Shown piece by piece: positions 1,263-10,937 of a stretch of DNA of 16,336 bases (positions are counted from its first letter, which is position 1; the number at the start of each line of letters is the position of its first letter). The position numbers and the translations under genes were made by a program. Source of the stretch: Dehalococcoidia bacterium (GTDB lineage Bacteria; Chloroflexota; Dehalococcoidia; E44-bin15); the NCBI GenBank assembly GCA_030638665.1, contig DAOWEF010000070.1:1-16336 (forward strand). The letters run 5' to 3'. The notes under the pieces were generated by a model, which saw only the letters and a program-made list of their open reading frames with translations, did no database searches and had not been told where the DNA came from.

Positions 1263-1360
1263 GGGAGCGGATGGGCCCCGGTGGACTCCGCGGACTTCAA
1301 ATCCGTTGGTGGGCACCTTGCGGTGTCTACGGTAGGTTCGACTCCTATGCGCTCCCGCCA
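1263..1360 (+). tRNA. selC: Selenocysteine tRNA (tRNA-Sec, anticodon TCA)
   Basis: The 98-nt gene has all marks of bacterial tRNA-Sec. The acceptor stem is long (GGGAGCG pairs with CGCTCCC; an eighth position is G opposite G). The anticodon arm is GCGGA-CTTCAAA-TCCGT with anticodon TCA at 1297-1299, closely matching the GGACTTCAAATCC of the E. coli gene. There is a long variable arm (GGCACC-TTGC-GGTGTC), a T arm GTAGG-TTCGACT-CCTAT, discriminator G and an encoded CCA end. The D stem pairs as GGGCCC with GGACTC, with one mismatch. It is charged with serine and converted by SelA, then carried by SelB to UGA. The selenium genes nearby confirm the call. Its 3' 13 nt recur at 3505-3517. Confidence 0.95.
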
Positions 1361-2824: not shown

Positions 2825-2977
2825 AGAATAAAGCAGGCAGACACAACACTGCGTTAAAAATGAATATTTTGTTCCGAGAAAGGCAAACCCGCCGAAAGGC
2901 GGCGACGCAAAGCCAAGGGTCTAAGGTTAGAACATTTAACTATGACAGCTCACCAGTGGCAGATAAACATCGTTTCG
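2825..2977 (+). promoter_or_regulatory. Second, 3'-truncated copy of the cyclic-di-GMP-I riboswitch
   Basis: Bases 2825-2949 repeat 2263-2387 with only three mismatches over 125 nt at a constant offset of 562. The similarity includes the leader hairpin GCAG/CTGC, GGCAAACC, GACGCAAAGCC and GGGTCTAAGGTT. It stops abruptly after ATGACAGC: the GGGCTGCCGA element and the perfect closing strand of the first copy are replaced by unrelated sequence. TTTCGG at 2972-2977 could still pair imperfectly with CCGAGAAA. The copy therefore probably cannot form the normal binding pocket, or it uses a changed 3' half. No separate promoter was seen directly before it. Confidence 0.75.
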
Positions 2978-3520: not shown

Positions 3521-5371
3521 CTATCGCAACACCCGCTCATCACCGATGCGGTGGGTTAATTTTTGTGCGTCCAGATATTCCATTAGGGCCAGGGCATATT
3601 TGCGACTGGTGTGGAACAGGTCGCGGACCTCGGCTACGGTTACCTTGCCCTGGGATTTTATCTGGGCGACTATGCCGTCCACCATCTTATCGTAGATAGA
3701 GGCGAGGAAGATCACGTCATCGCTTACCTTCACCACCCGACGTTGCTCTATGAGCAGATTGAGTAGGTCTGGCTCAAGTAGAGGATCGAGGGTTGGCAAG
3801 TAGGGATTGCGTGCCAACCTATTCAGGAAAGCGTCGACTTCTGCCTGCTGTTTCGGGGTAGGCTGAGGCTTGTGGTCGGGCGAGCGCACCATCGGCCCAG
3901 CCTCGATTAGGGTGCCTTCCTGTATGAGCTGCTCCAGAGCGCGGGCGAAGAACTTAGTGGGGGTCTTTATCTTGCCTCTCAGTTCCTCTTTAGGAGGGCC
4001 GTGGCGAAGAGGGAATTGCTGGTGGTATCTCTGGACAGCTAGCTTTGCTTGTTTTGCCAGTTTTTCCCAACCCTGTGCTGAGAAAAGCAGCATCATGTTT
4101 CCCAATACTATGACCTTCTTCTGAGCGGCCAGTGATCTTATAGCCTCCTCAACTTCCCCTCGCGACAGGTTGCAAAGGGTCAGCAACCTTTTCAGCTCGA
4201 GAGGCTCTTCTTCTTGTACAATGGCCAGGATTATCTGTTCAGCGGTGCCTGCCTCCCTGGTTGCTAGTCCCTCAATAACATCGGTGCGAAAGCGGCGGTG
4301 TCGTTTTGCCTGTGGGCCAACGATTTGCCCTCCGCCAAGGGTCTGCTGAGGGGAGCGAATGATGAATCGGTCATCCTTTACCGCCACAATGGGCTGAGCA
4401 AGCAGAAACTGAGCCCATGCTGTTTCCCCAGGCTCAATTTTGTTACTCTCCAGCAGGCGAATCTTCCCCAGCACCTCGGCGGCTCCATGGTGAAAGGTGA
4501 CGGTAGCATTATGGGGCAGAGGGCGAGGCGCAGAGGGCAACAAGCGTAGCTTAACATCGAACGCTCTGGTCGGCGTGAGCCAACCTGGGGTGGTCACCAC
4601 ATCGCCACGCGTTAGCTCACTGGTAGCCACACCGGACAGGTTGGCCGCTACGCGGTTGCCCGGAGAGGCGATATCGATTTTCTGCTTATGTGATTGCAGC
4701 CCGCGTATGCGTGCTGCTAGAGCTGGAGGCAGGATCTCTACCTCTTGTCCCTGGGATAAAGACCCATCGACCAGGGTTCCGGTAACCACGGTGCCAAAAC
4801 CAGCCATGGTAAAGACACGGTCTATGGGGAGCCTTGGCCTGCCGATGTCCTTCTTGGGTGTGGCGGAATCTAAAACCTGGTCAATAGCAGAAACTAGCTT
4901 GGGTAAGCCCTCACCGGTTAATGCGGAGACAGCGATGAGCGGGGCTTGCGCTAAGGTAGTGCCCGCTAATACATCCCCTACCTCCAATGTCACCAATTCC
5001 AGCCACTCCTCATCTACCAGGTCCTTCTTGGCTATTATTGCAATGCCCCGGTCTACCTGAAGAAGGTCGAGGATGGCCAGATGCTCTCTAGTTTGGGGCA
5101 TGACCCCTTCATCGGCGGCGATCACTAGCAAGGCGATGTCGATGCCTCCAACGCCGGCGAGCATGTTCTTGATGAAGTGCTCATGCCCGGGGACGTCCAC
5201 AATGCCGACCGCTCGACCGCTGGGCAGTTTTAGCCAGGCAAAGCCGAGGTCGATGGTCATGCCTCGCTCTTTTTCCTCCCGCAGCCGATCCGGGTCGATC
5301 CCGGTGAGTGCCTGAACCAGAACCGATTTCCCGTGATCGACATGGCCTGCGGTGCCTAGGACAAAGGGCAT
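3521..5371 (-). CDS. selB: Selenocysteine-specific translation elongation factor SelB
   Basis: SelB is a GTPase that carries selenocysteyl-tRNA-Sec to ribosomes stalled at UGA and binds the SECIS hairpin of the mRNA. The 616-residue protein has the usual length. The EF-Tu-like domain shows G1 AGHVDHGKS (8-16), switch region [10 protein letters not shown] (35-44), G3 DVPGH (59-63) and G4 AKKD (114-117). Beta-barrel domains follow, then the winged-helix repeats of the C-terminal third. The last helix ends [14 protein letters not shown]...RIGDERVLR, the characteristic SECIS-binding winged helix. The ATG at 5371 has GGGAG in the tail of selD, and only three bases separate it from the selD stop, so the genes are coupled. 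It is the last gene of the selenium operon. Confidence 0.98.
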
Positions 5372-5374
5372 GCG

Positions 5375-6427
5375 TTACTCCCGGATGATGATTCTCCCCT
5401 TCGGTTCCTCTACTACATCTCCGATGATGGCAGCATCCTTTATACCATTCCGGTGCAGGTTTTGAAGGAACACCTCCCCTTCATGGCTGGGAATGGAGAT
5501 CAATAATCCGCCCGAGGTTTGGGGATCGAAGAGGATATTCCACATATCATCCCCTATCTCATAAGCCTGCTCTATCATATTGAGGCGAAATTCCCTGTTG
5601 CGCTGCGTTCCCCCCGGAACCAGCCCCATCCGGGCAAACCCTTTCGCCTCGGGGAAGAAGGGAATGGCGGCGACATGGATCTCCATGCCTACCGGGCCAT
5701 CCGCAATCATTCCACAGGCATGCCCCAGGAGACCGTAACCGGTTATGTCAGTACAGGCGTGGACCCCCGCATCCTGCATTAGCGCCGATGCCCTCTGGTT
5801 CGAGGTAGTCATCGAGGCGGCGATGCGGGCCACAGCCTCCTCCCCTGCTACCCCACCCTTCAGGGCAGTGCTCACGATCCCCGTGCCCAGGGGCTTGGTG
5901 AGGATCAGTTTATCCCCCACGTCAGCCCCACTCTTGGCGATGATCTTGGAGGGATGAACGATACCGGTAACGGAGAGGCCATACTTCAGTTCCTCATCCG
6001 TAACGCTATGCCCCCCCACTAGGGCAACCCCCGCCTCCTGCAGCTTATCCCATCCACCGCGGAGGATCTCCCTGAGCACCGATATATCCTGGGTCTTCGT
6101 GGGGAAGCAGACCACATTCATCGCGGTGAGGGGCTTACCTCCCATGGCGTAGACATCGCTCAGGGCATTAGCGGCGGCGATTTGCCCGAAGGTATAGGGG
6201 TCATCGACGATGGGCGTGATGAAATCGATGGTCTGGATGATCGCCAGCTCATCGCTTAGCTTATAGACTCCAGCGTCATCACCACTCTCCAGGCCGATAA
6301 GCAGGTTCGGGTCATCGATCAAGGGCAGGTCGCACAAAGCTCTGTCTAGGTCCGACGGACCTATCTTAGAAGCTCAGCCGGAACCGCGAACGGTCTCAGT
6401 GAGTCTTGGCCTCACTATATCGTCCAT
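5375..6427 (-). CDS. selD: Selenophosphate synthetase SelD, itself a selenoprotein (Sec at codon 18)
   Basis: Makes selenophosphate from selenide and ATP. The true start is the ATG at 6427-6425, behind GGGAGGA five bases upstream. Codon 18 is TGA (6376-6374) in the context GSG-Sec-ASKIGP, exactly the catalytic Cys/Sec-x-x-Lys site of the family. A SECIS hairpin follows at once. The protein is then 350 residues, matching the roughly 347 of E. coli. Lys21 is the partner of the catalytic residue, and GDDAGVY (49-55) and the FGQIAAANALSDVYAMGG region are ATP/metal-binding signatures. A normal ORF search would start at TTG 6337 and lose 30 residues including the active site. It is followed by selB after three bases and preceded by yedF. 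Confidence 0.96.
6339..6376 (-). promoter_or_regulatory. Bacterial SECIS element of selD
   Basis: Directly after the UGA the mRNA can fold into an outer stem (GCUUCU with AGAGC, one bulge), an internal loop and a perfect 7-bp stem UAGGUCC-GUC-GGACCUA (6363-6347). The apical loop starts with G, 18 nt after the UGA. A G at the loop start and a loop 16-37 nt downstream of UGA fit the known bacterial SECIS rules. Confidence 0.88.
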
Positions 6428-6611: not shown

Positions 6612-7193
6612 TTACAAAGAGATAATCTTTTCTGCTCTGAGCAGGGTATCTGCTATCGTGTACATATTAGATACCTGGCCAACCGCCACTTTGTCTGACA
6701 ATTGCAAGCGTGATAGGCATGTCCCACAAGCCAGAATTTCTATCCCCCGGTTTTCCAGTTGGCGCAGCTCCCCTAGCACTGGAGAGTCATTGGTAGCCAG
6801 CTTCACCCCATTGTTGATGAAGATAATAGTTTCTGGCCTTGACGTAAGACCACCCAATGTGTCAAGGAAGCTTTGCATAAGGTAAATTCCTAACTGCTGA
6901 TTATCCCCTCTTCCCAAAATGTCGGAGGCGATAAATAGTACTATGCCAGTGGCAACCACGCACTGTTGTTTGGCTGGCCCACCCCCTGCCGTCCTCAGCG
7001 TTAGGTAGATTCCGTCCTCCTTTTGCTCAACGGTTACTTCGCAGCCCTGGTCCTTTCCTAATCGGGCAACGTTGTCTCGTGCTGCTTCGTTATCAACGAT
7101 CGTGATCACTTCATCTACTTCTTCCAAGGCTTTCTTGGTGAGCACAACAGGATGCGGACAGGACAGATTTCTCGCATCAATAATCTTGGCCAA
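6612..7193 (-). CDS. yedF: Selenium metabolism protein YedF (TusA-like plus DsrE-like)
   Basis: YedF proteins co-occur with selD and are thought to carry or deliver selenium; the exact reaction is unproven. The 193-residue protein has two parts. Residues 1-70 form a TusA/SirA-like domain with the hallmark cysteine in NLSCPHPV (Cys12) and a Lys-rich helix. Residues about 80-193 form a DsrE/F-like domain (LGRGDNQQLG, then a conserved cysteine pair in ILACGTCL). The start is a TTG at 7193, chosen because GGAGGG lies six bases upstream; an ATG within that spacer is followed at once by TAA. It lies between the shortened yedE and selD, as in other selenium gene clusters. Confidence 0.93.
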   Translation of the reverse strand: MAKIIDARNLSCPHPVVLTKKALEEVDEVITIVDNEAARDNVARLGKDQGCEVTVEQKEDGIYLTLRTAGGGPAKQQCVVATGIVLFIASDILGRGDNQQLGIYLMQSFLDTLGGLTSRPETIIFINNGVKLATNDSPVLGELRQLENRGIEILACGTCLSRLQLSDKVAVGQVSNMYTIADTLLRAEKIISL

Positions 7194-7302: not shown

Positions 7303-7605
7303 TCACGTGCCCAATAAAAATCGGACTAGCGGGGCGGAACCCCCTCTAGTCCGAAACTCGCCGAAGGCATAGGCAGCAGCGAAGCTGCCTAGAACGAAGC
7401 CTGTGATCTCAGGGCGGATATACTGTACCGCCCCGGCACTGTGCAGGCCTAGCGCCCCTGCGGTATCCCTCAGGAAGCAGCCTACACATATCCCCATGTT
7501 GGGCGGGTTTCCCCACCTCATCAGCAACGCCGACAGGATACCAATCACCAGCGCGGAGGTGAAGATCAATGTACCCGGCGTGAACAGTCGTGAAGCATGA
7601 GCCAA
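7303..7605 (-). pseudogene. yedE: Shortened YedE-type selenium transporter (N-terminal part only)
   Basis: YedE/YeeE proteins are membrane proteins linked to selenium (or thiosulfate) uptake. The first 100 residues are clearly this family: a membrane helix (TLIFTSALVIGILSALL), then NPPNMGICVGCFLRDTAGALGLH, QYIRPEITGFVLG and GEFRTRGGSAPLVRFLLG. Family members I know continue with MIGALVFLGCP and run to about 350-400 residues. Here the frame ends in TGA two codons after FLLG, so roughly 250 residues are missing. It may be a truncated, dead gene or a retained short form. The start is a TTG at 7605, with AAGGAG about six bases upstream. It is the first gene of the operon, behind a leader carrying a UGA mini-ORF. 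Confidence 0.8.
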
Positions 7606-7640
7606 AACGCTCTCCTTTCCTATTGGTTCTACTTGCCCTA

Positions 7641-7690
7641 AAGAGCCACGCTCTTAGCTGCTTCACAGCTCACGTACGTCGGTTAACCAT
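7641..7690 (-). promoter_or_regulatory. Leader mini-ORF ending in UGA with a SECIS-like hairpin
   Basis: In the 5' leader of yedE, AGGGGGTGA stands just before an ATG at 7690. Codons are MVNRRT and then TGA (7672-7670). After the UGA come GCUG-UGAAG-CAGC (7669-7657) and a perfect stem AAGAGC-GUG-GCUCUU (7655-7641). The apical loop begins with G, 21 nt after the UGA; the true SECIS of selD has a GUC loop at 18 nt, and both begin UGAGCU, then AAG after three bases. This could be a selenium- or SelB-sensing leader. The structure is seen; the function is inferred. Confidence 0.45.
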
Positions 7691-7736
7691 CGATCTCACC
7701 CCCTCTCTAGCCTACCTTATCTATATTCAATCAAGT

Positions 7737-7766
7737 AGTATAAAGTACTAAAACGAGCATTGTCAA
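7737..7766 (-). promoter_or_regulatory. Promoter of the yedE-yedF-selD-selB operon
   Basis: Minus strand: perfect TTGACA (7766-7761), an 18-nt spacer and TATACT (7742-7737). The start would be near 7730, giving a leader of about 125 nt before yedE that contains the UGA mini-ORF. Confidence 0.65.
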
Positions 7767-7807
7767 ACCTGGTTCAATTCTTATGCAATCCTTCAATGAG
7801 ACCTCGT

Positions 7808-7837
7808 TTGACAGGTTTCACGGGAATATGCTACATT
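7808..7837 (+). promoter_or_regulatory. selA: Probable selA promoter giving a nearly leaderless mRNA
   Basis: Perfect TTGACA (7808-7813), an 18-nt spacer and TACATT (7832-7837). The expected start, near 7844, is only a few bases before the selA ATG at 7847, which has no ribosome site. A further possible -10 (TATAAA near 7739-7744) could give a longer leader. Confidence 0.5.
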
Positions 7838-7846
7838 GCCTTCGCC

Positions 7847-9208
7847 ATGGACAAGAGATTTCGTAGCCTCCCCAGTGTCGATAAGGTCCTCTCCGATGAG
7901 CGCATCCACCGCCTCGAGGGGGATTACTCCCACAACTTCGTGCTTCAAGGAGTGCGGCAACATCTCGAAGAGGTGCGTCTTCACATCGCCCAGGGCAAAC
8001 CTGCCCCATCCTTTGACCAGCTAGTGAAATCTATCTGCGAGCGACTTGATTCTCTGGCGGAACCCAGCCTGCACCCGGTGATCAACGCAACAGGTGTCCT
8101 TCTGCACACCAACCTGGGGAGGGCGCCGTTAAGCCAGGAGGCAGTAGTGGCTATGGAGGAGTGCGCCAGAGGTTATACCAATCTGGAAATCGACGTCGAT
8201 AGCGGGAAGCGGGGTTCCCGCCAGGTTCACATCCAATCCCTGCTGTGTCAACTAACCGGAGCTGAGGCTGCTATGGCAGTAAACAATAACGCTTCAGCAG
8301 TGCTCCTGGCCCTCAGTGCCCTCGCCAAGGGTAAGGAGGTAATCGTCTCCCGGGGGCAGGCGGTGGAGATCGGCGGCGGCTTCCGCATCCCCGGTGTGAT
8401 GCGACAGAGCGGGGCTAAACTGGTGGAGGTGGGGACCACTAATCGCACATATTTGTCGGACTACGAAGAGGCAGTCACCCCCCGCACCGCAGCCCTACTC
8501 CGAGTCCACTCCAGCAACTTCAGAGTGGTCGGTTTCGCTCAATCGGTGGCCATTGAGGAGTTGACTCAGCTCGGGGAGCGATACGGGCTTCCAGTGCTCG
8601 ATGACTTAGGCAGCGGCTGCCTCTTGGATACCGCCAGGTTCGGGCTGGACCCTGAGCCTATGGTTCAGCAGAGCATTGCGGCTGGGGTAGGGCTGGCCAT
8701 GTTCTCCGCGGATAAGCTCCTGGGCGGACCCCAAGCCGGGATCATTGTGGGCCAGGGCCCCCTTGTTGCCAAGCTCCAAAGGCATCCCCTGGCTCGCGCG
8801 GTGCGTATCGACAAGATAAGGTTGGCCGGGCTGGCAGTCACCTTGATCCACTATCTCAAGGGTGAAGCGGAGACCAAAATCCCGGTATGGCGGATGCTCT
8901 CGGCATCCCTGGAGGAAATAGAGGAGCGAGCCCAGAAATGGCGTCATTTCCTCGGTAGTGCCGCCTCAATAGTTGAAGGTGAATCCGTAGTGGGGGGCGG
9001 TAGCCTTCCCGGGGGCACCTTGCCCACTCGCCTGGTGGCTATCAGCGGCAGGGGCAAAGTTAAGGAACTGGCTGACAAGCTGCGCAGGGAGTCTCCTCTG
9101 GTCATTGGGCGGATTGAGAATGACCTTTTGCTCCTCGACCCCCGAACTGTCCTCCCTGAGGAGGAAGAAGCCCTGATGAGTCGCCTGCGAAATATCTTGA
9201 GCCCCTAG
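7847..9208 (+). CDS. selA: L-seryl-tRNA(Sec) selenium transferase SelA
   Basis: PLP enzyme that converts seryl-tRNA-Sec to selenocysteyl-tRNA-Sec using selenophosphate from SelD; it acts in the cytoplasm as a large ring-shaped complex. The 453-residue protein is of normal length. The N-terminal tRNA-binding domain begins with RSLPSVDKVL. The core has VINATGVLLHTNLGRAPLS, ALLRVHSSNF, LDDLGSGCLL and the PLP-lysine motif FSADKLLGGPQAGIIVG, with Lys290 at the position of E. coli Lys295. The ATG at 7847 is chosen because family members begin a few residues before LPSVD; in-frame ATG codons at 7796 and 7760 would add a tail unlike the family. It is transcribed away from the rest of the selenium operon. 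Confidence 0.97.
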   Translation: MDKRFRSLPSVDKVLSDERIHRLEGDYSHNFVLQGVRQHLEEVRLHIAQGKPAPSFDQLVKSICERLDSLAEPSLHPVINATGVLLHTNLGRAPLSQEAVVAMEECARGYTNLEIDVDSGKRGSRQVHIQSLLCQLTGAEAAMAVNNNASAVLLALSALAKGKEVIVSRGQAVEIGGGFRIPGVMRQSGAKLVEVGTTNRTYLSDYEEAVTPRTAALLRVHSSNFRVVGFAQSVAIEELTQLGERYGLPVLDDLGSGCLLDTARFGLDPEPMVQQSIAAGVGLAMFSADKLLGGPQAGIIVGQGPLVAKLQRHPLARAVRIDKIRLAGLAVTLIHYLKGEAETKIPVWRMLSASLEEIEERAQKWRHFLGSAASIVEGESVVGGGSLPGGTLPTRLVAISGRGKVKELADKLRRESPLVIGRIENDLLLLDPRTVLPEEEEALMSRLRNILSP

Positions 9209-9504: not shown

Positions 9505-9726
9505 ATGCCACTGCATGGATGGGAGTTCCTTATTATAGTGGTGGTCGTGTTGATCGTCTTTGGGGTGGGGAAGCTTCCCCAGACACTGGGCTCTCTTGGC
9601 AAGGGTATCCGTAGCTTCCGTAAGGCGTCGGCAGGCGAGGACGTGGACACGGAATCTTTGGAGTCTAAGTCCAAAAAGGAAGAGCCCACGAAAGAAAAAG
9701 ATACCGCCGACGAAGAGAAAAGCTAG
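9505..9726 (+). CDS. tatA: Twin-arginine translocase subunit TatA
   Basis: Pore-forming subunit of the Tat system, which exports folded proteins. The 73-residue protein shows the classic plan: a short N-terminal membrane helix (about residues 5-20, [17 protein letters not shown]), the FGVGKLP hinge, an amphipathic helix ([14 protein letters not shown]) and an acidic/lysine-rich tail. The ATG is preceded by GAGGAGGGGAGT. It is the first gene of a tatA-tatB-tatC cluster on the plus strand. Confidence 0.93.
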
Positions 9727-9823
9727 CCTCTGGCTTATCCCCCTTGCTTATCCCCTTGTAGTTGAGAATCGAGAGAAAACAGCTTTCCTTCCCTGTAGGG
9801 ATTGGCTAAGCGGGTGGTGATGG

Positions 9824-10150
9824 ATGGTTGATGGCTTCTTAGGTATAGGTTTCTGGGAGATACTTCTAGTATTTGTAGTCATCCTGGCGCTATTGGGGCC
9901 AAGAAGGCTGCCTGAGATCGCTGGAAGACTGGGAACGTTAGTTCGCCGGCTGAAGAGGGCTTCCTATGATCTGACATCGGCGCTGACTAAGGAAGTGGAA
10001 GGTACCCCGCTGAAGCAAGGTGAGAATCCTCTGAGTTCCATTAAGCAGGCAGCCTCTGATCTGAAATCATCGCTGACTAGGGAAGTAAAAGATGCCCCTC
10101 AGAAGGAAGACGATAGTCCCCCAGGTAAGGCCGAGGAACCGAAGACCTAA
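9824..10150 (+). CDS. tatB: Second TatA/TatB-family subunit, TatB-like
   Basis: This 108-residue protein has one N-terminal membrane helix (about residues 9-25) followed by GPRRLPEIAGRLG, the TatB-type GPxRLPE signature, and a long amphipathic helix. TatB binds TatC and receives signal peptides; in some bacteria one TatA-like protein does both jobs, so the exact role is inferred. The C-terminal half contains an internal duplication: residues 46-64 and 76-94 repeat A-x-x-D-L-x-S-x-L-T-[KR]-E-V with a 30-residue offset, visible in the DNA as well (9967-9996 and 10057-10086). It lies about 100 nt after tatA and 40 nt before tatC. Confidence 0.87.
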   Translation: MVDGFLGIGFWEILLVFVVILALLGPRRLPEIAGRLGTLVRRLKRASYDLTSALTKEVEGTPLKQGENPLSSIKQAASDLKSSLTREVKDAPQKEDDSPPGKAEEPKT

Positions 10151-10190
10151 GCATAGCACGATTGCTGGCCGATGAGACGCCGCATAGCCG

Positions 10191-10937
10191 ATGGAGGAAG
10201 AGAAAAAACTCACGGTTTTAGGCCATCTGGAGGAAGTGCGGGGGCGCCTGGTTAAGTCCTTAATAGCTGTCGTCATCTGCATTGGTATTTGTTTCCCCCT
10301 GGCACGGTATATCTACCCCATCTTAATGACCCCCCTCCCCGGCATTGAGCTGTATTACACCGAAGTAACCGGATTACTGGGGAGTTATATGAAAGTCAGC
10401 CTATATGGCGGTCTAGTCCTCGCCGGGCCTTACCTTCTCTACCAGTTTATAATGTTCATGAAGCCAGCCCTTACTCGTAGGGAGAAAGGATATTTTTATA
10501 CGCTGTTGCCTGGAGTGCTCATTCTTTTCTTCGGGGGGGTCATGTTTGGCTACTTTATACTCCTGCCCCCAGCGCTAAATTTTCTATACTACTCGTTTCC
10601 AGGTTTCGTCGGCGGTGATATAAACCCAATTTGGACAGTGGATAATTACGTTTCTGTGGTCACCAGGCTCCTCTTCTGGCTCGGTGTGGTGTTCGAAATA
10701 CCGATACTAATGTACTTCTTGAGCAAGATTGGTGTGATTAGCCCGGAGTGGATTCGCAGGAAGTGGAGGTATGCGGTGGTCATTGCCTTCATCATCGGTG
10801 GTGTCATAACCCCCACATTTGACCCGGTCAATCAGAGCTTGGTTGCTGGTCCTATCATCCTCCTCTACGGGCTTGGCTACTTGCTAGCAAAGCTTGCGCG
10901 TTTGGGTAGTAAGAGGGCAGAGACTGAAACGATGTAG
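10191..10937 (+). CDS. tatC: Sec-independent protein translocase TatC
   Basis: Core receptor for twin-arginine signal peptides. The 248-residue protein starts EEEKKLTVLGHLEEVRGRLVKSL, the conserved cytoplasmic N-terminus (H-L-E-E-x-R-x-R). It has six membrane helices, including YGGLVLAGPYLLYQFIMFMKPALTRREKGY, which contains the family's P-x-L-x-x-x-E/K-K region, and the VVFEIPILMYFLSKIGV segment. TatA, TatB and TatC together make a full translocase. The gene ends four bases before a relic of nuoA lying on the opposite strand. Confidence 0.96.
   Translation: MEEEKKLTVLGHLEEVRGRLVKSLIAVVICIGICFPLARYIYPILMTPLPGIELYYTEVTGLLGSYMKVSLYGGLVLAGPYLLYQFIMFMKPALTRREKGYFYTLLPGVLILFFGGVMFGYFILLPPALNFLYYSFPGFVGGDINPIWTVDNYVSVVTRLLFWLGVVFEIPILMYFLSKIGVISPEWIRRKWRYAVVIAFIIGGVITPTFDPVNQSLVAGPIILLYGLGYLLAKLARLGSKRAETETM

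Follow-up and report, generated by a model that had tools for sequence, protein, structure and literature searches.

A candidate ribosome-read selenium sensor, with UGA as the codon sensed, in the leader of a selenium operon of Dehalococcoidia

Introduction

A SECIS-like element in the leader of E. coli selAB (Thanbichler and Boeck 2002, EMBO J 21:6925) reportedly tunes expression by means of SelB together with Sec-tRNA. In the leader-peptide attenuators of the trp, his and phe operons, downstream expression is set by the fate of the ribosome at end-product codons of a short promoter-proximal ORF. To our knowledge, the way in which bacteria sense their selenium supply is little understood. A leader peptide with UGA as Sec codon did not figure among the matches listed (titles and beginnings of abstracts, at most 20 per search of up to 181) in the literature on Sec leaders, SECIS-like control and attenuation, a scope outside which most subscription papers and preprints fall.

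In the present study we have analysed a contig of 16,336 nt from a bacterium of the class Dehalococcoidia (DAOWEF010000070.1; this whole stretch is called the window), in which a first-pass annotation had noticed a mini-ORF ending in UGA before a SECIS-like hairpin. The locus resembles the selAB leader in placing a SECIS-type hairpin before genes of the selenium machinery, and the trp, his and phe attenuators in having a short ORF just after a putative promoter, with a codon for the pathway product, if the UGA is read as Sec.

Results

Organisation of the leader and its operon

The window encodes SelB, SelA, SelD and tRNA-Sec, and the UGA of the mini-ORF sits in a Sec operon (Table 1). On the minus strand the Shine-Dalgarno sequence GAGAGGGGGTGAG precedes the ATG at 7690-7688; 20 nt separate the UGA from the GUG loop, the first G of which is nucleotide 21 after the UGA. 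Ribosome site, start, six codons, UGA, 6-bp stem and loop were all found where the first-pass annotation had placed them. The yedE start, for which it had given a distance of about 65 nt and another frame, is indeed out of frame, the TTG at 7605 being by our count 64 nt past the UGA. From sequence comparison we take the element (ribosome site, 6-codon ORF, UGA and SECIS-like hairpin) to be real, to lie at this place and to be conserved.

Because of the sigma70-like promoter at 7766-7737, about 50 nt upstream, the mini-ORF probably comes before all other ORFs of the transcript, a short ORF near a promoter as in a leader-peptide attenuator. Inspection by eye of the 90 nt upstream of 12 leaders found TTGACA in seven and TTGACG in two, the stretch ending at that place in the other three.

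The Sec site of selD reads UGAGCUUCUAAG...GGUCC GUC GGACC, with 17 nt from UGA to loop. This site lies some 1.3 kb away. The UGAGCU and AAG that it shares with the leader, once taken as a likeness of the two, are coincidental and were dropped, since other leaders have UGAGCC, UGAGUC, UGAACC or UGAAGC.

Table 1. Features of the selenium locus in the window
Feature	Positions	Strand	Basis or remark
sigma70-like promoter of the leader: TTGACA, 18 nt, TATACT	7737..7766	-	consensus scan, 11/12 matches
strong Shine-Dalgarno GAGAGGGGGTGA of the mini-ORF	7696..7707	-	9/12 columns invariant in 12 aligned leaders
mini-ORF ATG GTT AAC CGA CGT ACG UGA = MVNRRT-(Sec or stop)	7670..7690	-	sequence; UGA 7672-7670
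SECIS-like hairpin AAGAGC-GUG-GCUCUU, perfect 6 bp	7641..7655	-	-5.0 kcal/mol alone; pairs in 12/12 aligned leaders
read-through frame, 86 codons, out of frame over the yedE start, last codons CCG CCC UGA (7411-7409)	7409..7669	-	same stop site in 10/11 adjacent-type leaders
yedE remnant of 100 aa, starting with TTG and matching just the N-terminal part of TIGR04112	7303..7605	-	covers 3-87 of the 337 profile positions
terminator-like hairpin inside yedE, CGGACUAG.GGGG...CCCC.CUAGUCCG	7322..7353	-	-25.3 kcal/mol, z -3.16
U-tract AUUUUUAUU directly 3' of the intragenic hairpin	7313..7321	-	sequence, folding
yedF (TIGR03527), next operon gene	6612..7193	-	family profile match
selD, own Sec UGA (6376), SECIS GGUCC-GUC-GGACC	5375..6427	-	ATG 6427 picked by eye
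selB (TIGR00475)	3521..5371	-	family profile match
selA (TIGR00474), divergent	7760..9208	+	likely start ATG about 7848
tRNA-Sec	1263..1360	+	present in the window

yedE itself, treated earlier as a plain gene, is present in the window only as a 100-codon remnant, which scores 132.9 bits against TIGR04112, under the cut-off of 200, and the genes controlled would be yedF, selD and selB. It stops at the same codon, just past the U-tract, in the window (G000), G001 (L074) and G006 (L057). The G006 yedE is 53% identical to that of the window, with 22, 22 and 35 differences at codon positions 1, 2 and 3 and both frames open; after random substitution, both frames were open in 3.5% of the trials of this comparison. 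We infer that the first 100 yedE codons may have been retained as part of a regulator after the transporter was lost, and the regulator proposed below, if true, would also account for three genomes keeping only about these codons.

Elsewhere in the window, two c-di-GMP-I riboswitch aptamers (2310-2399 and 2872-2964, plus strand; 81.6 and 56.6 bits) lie on the same strand about 470 nt apart, the longest listed plus-strand ORF close behind them having 63 aa. Three ORFs at 9505-10937 (plus strand), adjoining the selenium cluster, resemble two TatA-type proteins and one TatC, as judged by eye from their translations.

Conservation of the leader in the class

Conservation in relatives, on which the earlier proposal had been made to depend, was found: a mini-ORF with its UGA and a hairpin spaced as in a SECIS are shared by six families of the class. 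The total is 17 leaders, of which 16 precede yedE and one precedes a DUF3798/ABC transporter. Every one of the 17 has the ending R(R/K/S)T-UGA, a uniformity that partly reflects selection, since several came from patterns demanding that ending: three of the four patterns required the peptide end and UGA, one UGA alone, and it was the peptide that decided that G110 was counted and the f70 candidates (below) were left out.

Among relatives that have the locus the nearest is G006, which belongs to another genus and was found through YedF. Its Shine-Dalgarno sequence and hairpin core are identical to those of the window; the changes on both sides of the UGA mostly affect third codon positions, and at the outer end of the hairpin an A-U pair has become G-C. 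The pattern search gave leaders in 3 of the 14 genomes of the window's family, and all six genomes of that family that bear yedE carry the leader. Across the class, a pattern search matched 11 of 393 genomes, seven of the matches being real (six mismatch-free in the window's family, plus G204 elsewhere). Scanning genome_contigs returned 29 exact matches, among which 10 precede yedE and diverge from selA; the assemblies of these 10 all have Dehalococcoidia, Dehalococcoidales or Chloroflexi in their titles. The other 19, with no SelA, SelB, SelD, YedE or YedF match in the stretch covered, were taken as chance.

When 12 distinct leaders were aligned, the hairpin paired in 12 of 12, one pair of the 6-bp stem being changed on both sides. 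The hairpin is otherwise near-invariant and its own covariation is weak, the observed score being reached by 206 of 500 shuffles. Over the last four codons of the mini-ORF, all four third positions vary against one of the eight other positions, in the six leaders of the window's family and likewise in all 12.

A covariance model of the leader gave matches at E 0.05 in 21 of the 393 class genomes and matches in 10 of 301 phylum genomes, the leaders among the latter being, as far as inspected, only the two already known. The model added G138 (MRRRT-UGA) and G372 (start GTG, YRKT-UGA), both directly before yedE and with 20 nt between UGA and GUG. Weaker matches of the model at L148, L150, L158, L159 and L160, with no YedE, YedF, SelA, SelB or SelD match, were set aside, and L151-L155, L157 and L161-L165 were left out of the inspection.

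A pattern of Shine-Dalgarno sequence, peptide and UGA returned 30 sites in 28 of the 393 genomes, 15 of them in frame, and added two leaders. That of G375 (MIRINRRT-UGA; hairpin UGCGUUG-UGUAU-CAACGCA, spacing 25) lies about 170 nt before yedE. The second leader of G204 (MLILNRRT-UGA; hairpin GAUGCGC-GUG-GUGCAUC, spacing 21) is followed, after some 350 nt, by a gene for a DUF3798 protein (PF12683, E 1.8e-116) and an ABC ATPase-like frame named by eye. The stems of these two are unrelated, yet they stand at SECIS distance, RRT-UGA being part of the search pattern. The leader of G110 (MAASQRKT-UGA), about 400 nt before yedE, came from a mechanical scan upstream of 29 yedE loci, for which the SECIS-like stem of G138 is too weak.

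In L196 (2472-3982, plus strand) the second leader of the kind is followed by the DUF3798 protein and the ABC ATPase-like frame, a candidate selenium-regulated transporter. In f70 (G187 and G158; L091 and L093, reverse complement) a strong Shine-Dalgarno sequence and a 10-codon ORF to UGA lie about 390 nt before yedE; these candidates, of the form MT..PR..F[VT]-UGA, pass the strict scan with a different peptide and a conserved GUU-loop hairpin at spacing 33, and G158 has a second UGA two codons after the first. They are possibly an independent variant and are kept outside the 17.

UGA against other stops

The mechanical scan asked for a Shine-Dalgarno motif GG[AG]GGTGA, 3-13 codons, UGA and a SECIS-like hairpin. 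It gave 10 sites in 14 selenium loci (255,652 nt, both strands), each of them a leader and one in the window, the G138 leader being missed, against no site with any stop in 19 control contigs (290,958 nt), a comparison in which the motif was fixed after the leaders were known and some of the 14 loci were chosen as leader-bearing. Its UAA or UAG versions found no site in the selenium loci or in the control contigs.

Thirty yedE loci were chosen by YedE family, ignoring leaders (L085-L113 plus G006; L114, a weak YedE paralogue, was dropped). No peptide being asked for, there were 17 sites with Shine-Dalgarno sequence, ORF and UGA, of which 15 had a SECIS-like hairpin, and none with UAA or UAG, counts that are not independent because the leader-bearing yedE belong to few lineages. 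Thirteen of the 15 end R(R/K/S)T and the other two are the f70 pair. The exclusive use of UGA, the kept peptide end and the variation at third positions indicate that the leader peptide is translated and selected, and that its stop is specifically UGA, as for a Sec codon.

Fit of the leader hairpin to the bacterial SECIS model

The bacterial SECIS model (PMC13188914, Fig. 2 legend) has an apical loop of 3-9 nt on an upper stem of 4-16 bp, a G within the first two nucleotides of the loop, usually with G or U after it, 16-37 nt from UGA to loop, and a minimum free energy of at most -7.5 kcal/mol. A GUG loop with at least six pairs is possible in 12 of the 12 aligned leaders, the stem of G138 being weak, and the loops of G372, G375, the second G204 leader and G110 are CGUGU, UGUAU, GUG and CGGGC. 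The spacing is 20 nt in the 12 aligned leaders and 19-25 nt in these other four. The bare 15-nt hairpin, at -4.1 to -7.0 kcal/mol in the 12 leaders, is weak against the energy of the model; the 48 nt from the UGA reach -8.4 to -18.6 kcal/mol, but their lowest-energy fold holds the GUG hairpin in just 9 of the 12, the window being one of the three where it is missing.

For the 43-48 nt of the window that start at the UGA, the fold of lowest energy lacks the GUG hairpin. This rival structure needs bases that would be hidden under a ribosome standing on the UGA. When folding begins at UGA+15, approximately where such a ribosome frees the RNA, the GUG hairpin is the predicted fold in the window and is obtained in 11 of the 12 leaders. 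The folding energy of the leader was discarded as a test of its reality, being uninformative (in the window, z -1.67 for UGA plus hairpin, with 11 of 200 shuffles folding as well, and z 0.23 for the whole 161-nt leader, in which no competing antiterminator structure was identified). It is the conservation of the element that goes beyond chance. By loop, stem and spacing the hairpin may be called SECIS-like, and binding of SelB and insertion of Sec are predicted.

These data bear on the simplest reading, that of an ordinary upstream ORF whose UGA is a plain stop serving translational coupling, next to a structural hairpin unrelated to SelB. A terminated ORF 64 nt before the TTG start could couple initiation, and the SECIS-like hairpin of the window is not its lowest-energy fold. 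We nevertheless judge this reading very unlikely, given 15 UGA sites against none with UAA or UAG when the stop was left free, a GU or GG loop recurring at SECIS spacing on quite different stems, and a SelB that clears the cut-off of its family in 3 of the 5 other leader genomes examined (matches in G138 and G204 being weaker or partial).

The read-through frame and its fixed stop

The fixed UGA of the read-through frame lies about 55 nt before the intragenic hairpin (in the window, stop at 7411-7409 and hairpin from 7353), and hairpin and stop are found together in 10 of 11 adjacent-type leaders, both in none of the 21 other yedE. The first read-through stop falls exactly at the Pro-Glu codons CCU-GAR in 9 of 9 survey leaders versus 0 of 21 others (Fisher 7e-8, ignoring ancestry); G372, from a third family, has all three parts, namely the leader, the intragenic hairpin and the same read-through stop. 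Openness of the frame is by itself unremarkable, as it extends past the Pro-Glu codons in 8 of the 21 other yedE, with 0.19-0.38 in simulations; the alignments of several leaderless yedE start at residue 9-21, which places earlier codons outside the stop scan. Synonymous recoding of eight sequences brought the first stop to Pro-Glu in 1-9% of trials per sequence.

Between G000 and G001, G003 and G007, identity in the overlap is 0.79-0.83 in the yedE frame and 0.63-0.69 in the read-through frame. Since the yedE frame is the more conserved, the product of read-through does not appear to be the object of selection. A small selenoprotein of about 39-97 residues, made by mini-ORF and read-through together, would agree with the in-frame UGA and its SECIS-like hairpin, with the conserved start and N-terminal residues, and with the persistence of the leader in genomes with decayed yedE. 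It is the least probable of the readings that we weighed, and the read-through product was rejected as a functional selenoprotein: the 30 to 91 codons after the UGA have no Pfam match, their residues differ between families save for RAWL/RACL, which is the hairpin itself, and the constrained frame is that of yedE.

In E. coli pheL, frame shifts occur at a CCC_UGA-type site (PMC5009743). A +1 shift at CCC_UGA into the yedE frame was considered and rejected, for the site is present in 8 of 9 survey leaders versus 3 of 19 others (L101 and L108, where the motif was not parsed, being left out of the count) but is absent in L059. In some f1 members the post-UGA segment pairs by eye over a long range with early yedE codons, a pairing that we do not claim as real.

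With the fixed stop so placed, a ribosome that reads through would cross the yedE start without reaching the hairpin, whereas one translating yedE itself would traverse it.

A terminator-like hairpin inside yedE

The intragenic hairpin is built from codons of EFRTRGGSAPLVRFLLG, followed by a U-rich stretch. It takes the form CGAACUAGAGGUGG...CGCCUCUAGUUCG UUUUUU in f45 and CGAGCCAGGGGUGG...CGCCUCUGGUUCG UUUUUU in G372; a simple terminator scan made no call for the hairpin of the window. The 30 yedE loci comprise nine with a leader directly upstream and the hairpin, one with a leader directly upstream without it (G138), three with a leader about 370-400 nt upstream (G184, G204 and G213) and 17 without leader by pattern. 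Two of these 17 are short of upstream sequence and for three (G110, G187 and G158) a candidate emerged later. The DNA upstream of yedE measures 6 nt in L085 and 250 nt in L095, too little to establish that these loci lack a leader.

A score for a stem followed by T was 8-14 in the nine adjacent-leader yedE and 0-8 in the remaining 21, where a score of 8 was attained three times (Fisher 1.5e-5, ignoring ancestry). Stems scored without the U-tract requirement are unremarkable, since they attain up to 14 pairs in other yedE, so that it is the junction of stem and U-tract that distinguishes the nine. Across 11 sequences, among them that of G372 and the decayed copy of yedE in G065, four pairs are changed on both sides (9 cells), and the covariation score of 0.224 vs 0.120 was equalled by none of 500 shuffles. 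The decayed G065 gene keeps its stem by a paired change, two conserved Arg codons having become Gln and Cys (by eye); no leader was found in G065. At L077 (4514-4585, minus strand) this genome retains just the hairpin-bearing piece of yedE, with compensating changes, and other DNA lies between the piece and selA.

Synonymous recoding gave, for hairpin energy, p values of 0.005-0.08 in five f1 members, 0.09-0.20 in f45 and 0.015 in one leaderless yedE, L057, L087 and L108 giving no motif in this test. For the statistic of stem plus T they were 0.002-0.008 in f45, 0.003-0.009 in three f1 members and 0.04-0.28 in three others, and 0.008-0.04 in four leaderless yedE. What can be read from the alignments is a conserved order of Shine-Dalgarno sequence, ORF, UGA and hairpin, a fixed frame and stop, a covarying hairpin with its U-tract, and the joint occurrence of these parts.

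Discussion

We propose that the leader is a selenium sensor read by the ribosome, in which Sec read-through would occlude yedE and allow the intragenic terminator to form, with the operon going down as selenium rises; on balance we believe this to be probable. Sec insertion, the direction of the response and the mechanism, as we infer them, would be the following. Ribosomes would initiate on the mini-ORF and arrive at the UGA, where, with SelB and Sec-tRNA present, the SECIS-like hairpin would permit insertion of Sec. The read-through ribosome would cross the ribosome site and start of yedE in the wrong frame and halt about 55 nt before the terminator-like hairpin; with yedE uninitiated, the terminator could form and the operon (yedE remnant, yedF, selD and selB) would be turned down. 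When Sec-tRNA is scarce, RF2 would terminate at the UGA, the yedE start would be free or reached by re-initiation, and a ribosome translating yedE would hold the terminator open and keep the operon on. The earlier suggestion of a selenium-sensing attenuator, working through read-through or stalling by SelB at the UGA, holds in outline, with a conserved element, a fixed read-through stop and a terminator-like hairpin, its presumed target yedE being a remnant here. The stop inside yedE and the hairpin beyond it were not part of that first-pass annotation, and fit the attenuator idea.

The off-with-selenium direction is suggested by the geometry and by the rise of the yedE transcript on selenium depletion in Methanococcus maripaludis, by 5.28 log2 (PMC11097638), another organism with a change in the predicted direction. 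The same paper states that selenium transport by YedE could not be shown, its role as transporter being so far unproven. For E. coli, PMC4513850 gives a UGA recoding of 30-40%, dependent on selenium, which would suit a graded sensor.

Several loci do not fit. The leader of G138 adjoins yedE without intragenic hairpin and without distal stop; in G184, G204 and G213 the leader is intact, the adjoining yedE copy is decayed and no hairpin with U-tract was seen; and in G375, in G110 and at the second leader of G204 the frame after the UGA closes short of the gene. From G138, the decayed yedE and the leaders far upstream, it follows that occlusion with intragenic termination cannot be the whole function, and where the leader is 170-400 nt from the gene the sensor would have to work by another route. 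In L048, L053 and L062, up to about +400 of the leader, a decayed yedE N-terminus follows an intact leader and precedes an intact second yedE without hairpin.

Leaders far from their gene would also be served by a SelB-SECIS complex acting as a local translational repressor, in which SelB and Sec-tRNA on the hairpin pause or block ribosomes and lower yedE initiation, as reportedly in the E. coli selAB leader, read-through being incidental. The place of a SECIS-like element in the leader of a selenium operon and a hairpin sequence almost invariant in 12 leaders, as for a protein site, agree with this idea. It would leave unexplained the kept ORF, strong Shine-Dalgarno sequence, peptide end and UGA, as well as the fixed read-through stop and the intragenic hairpin, and we hold it to be rather unlikely. 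A positive switch, in which read-through ribosomes cover an untranslated leader, prevent premature termination (Rho-dependent or intrinsic) and raise expression with selenium, suits the leaders 170-400 nt from the gene and a read-through that ends before it. In the adjacent type, however, read-through would cover the yedE start out of frame and stop before the hairpin, and the transcript response of M. maripaludis (PMC11097638) goes the other way; we regard the positive switch as quite unlikely.

Returning to the sensor that turns the operon down with selenium, we put forward, tentatively, a wider proposal: a class of cis-regulators with a recoded stop as sensor, in which UGA/SECIS read-through versus termination in a leader peptide of 5-8 codons (...R-R/K-T-Sec) would measure Sec-tRNA, switch ribosomes between overlapping frames and open or close an intragenic terminator. 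It would be a regulon signal in Dehalococcoidia-type Chloroflexota, and would point to selenium transporters that have gone unrecognised, one example being the DUF3798/ABC system in G204. If this is true, the cell gauges selenium directly by how well Sec decoding succeeds, using the same machinery that the sensor controls; YedE gains a selenium-specific regulatory link; and a searchable signature becomes available for more selenium uptake systems, with one candidate here (G204 DUF3798/ABC). It would also mean an attenuator whose sensed codon is a recoded stop.

Within the same family, the true bacterial SECIS elements of selD and fdhA share with the leader a UGA and, behind it, a hairpin whose small loop contains G-U, this dinucleotide starting 20 nt after the UGA in fdhA of G003 (by eye), 18 nt in selD and 21 nt in the leader; they differ from it in that no conserved selenoprotein follows the leader UGA. 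Compared with the trp, his and phe attenuators, the codon sensed here would be a stop recoded by SelB and SECIS, the choice would be termination versus read-through instead of stalling versus passage, and the terminator-like structure lies inside the first gene, with no mutually exclusive antiterminator identified. Among known systems, the selAB leader of E. coli comes closest. Unlike it, the present leader has a mini-ORF with an in-frame UGA at Sec spacing before the hairpin, its target would be yedE-yedF-selD-selB or a transporter, and it is accompanied by a read-through frame and an intragenic terminator-like hairpin. What appears to be new is that, in 10 of the 11 adjacent leaders, a covarying intragenic hairpin occurs together with a fixed out-of-frame read-through stop.
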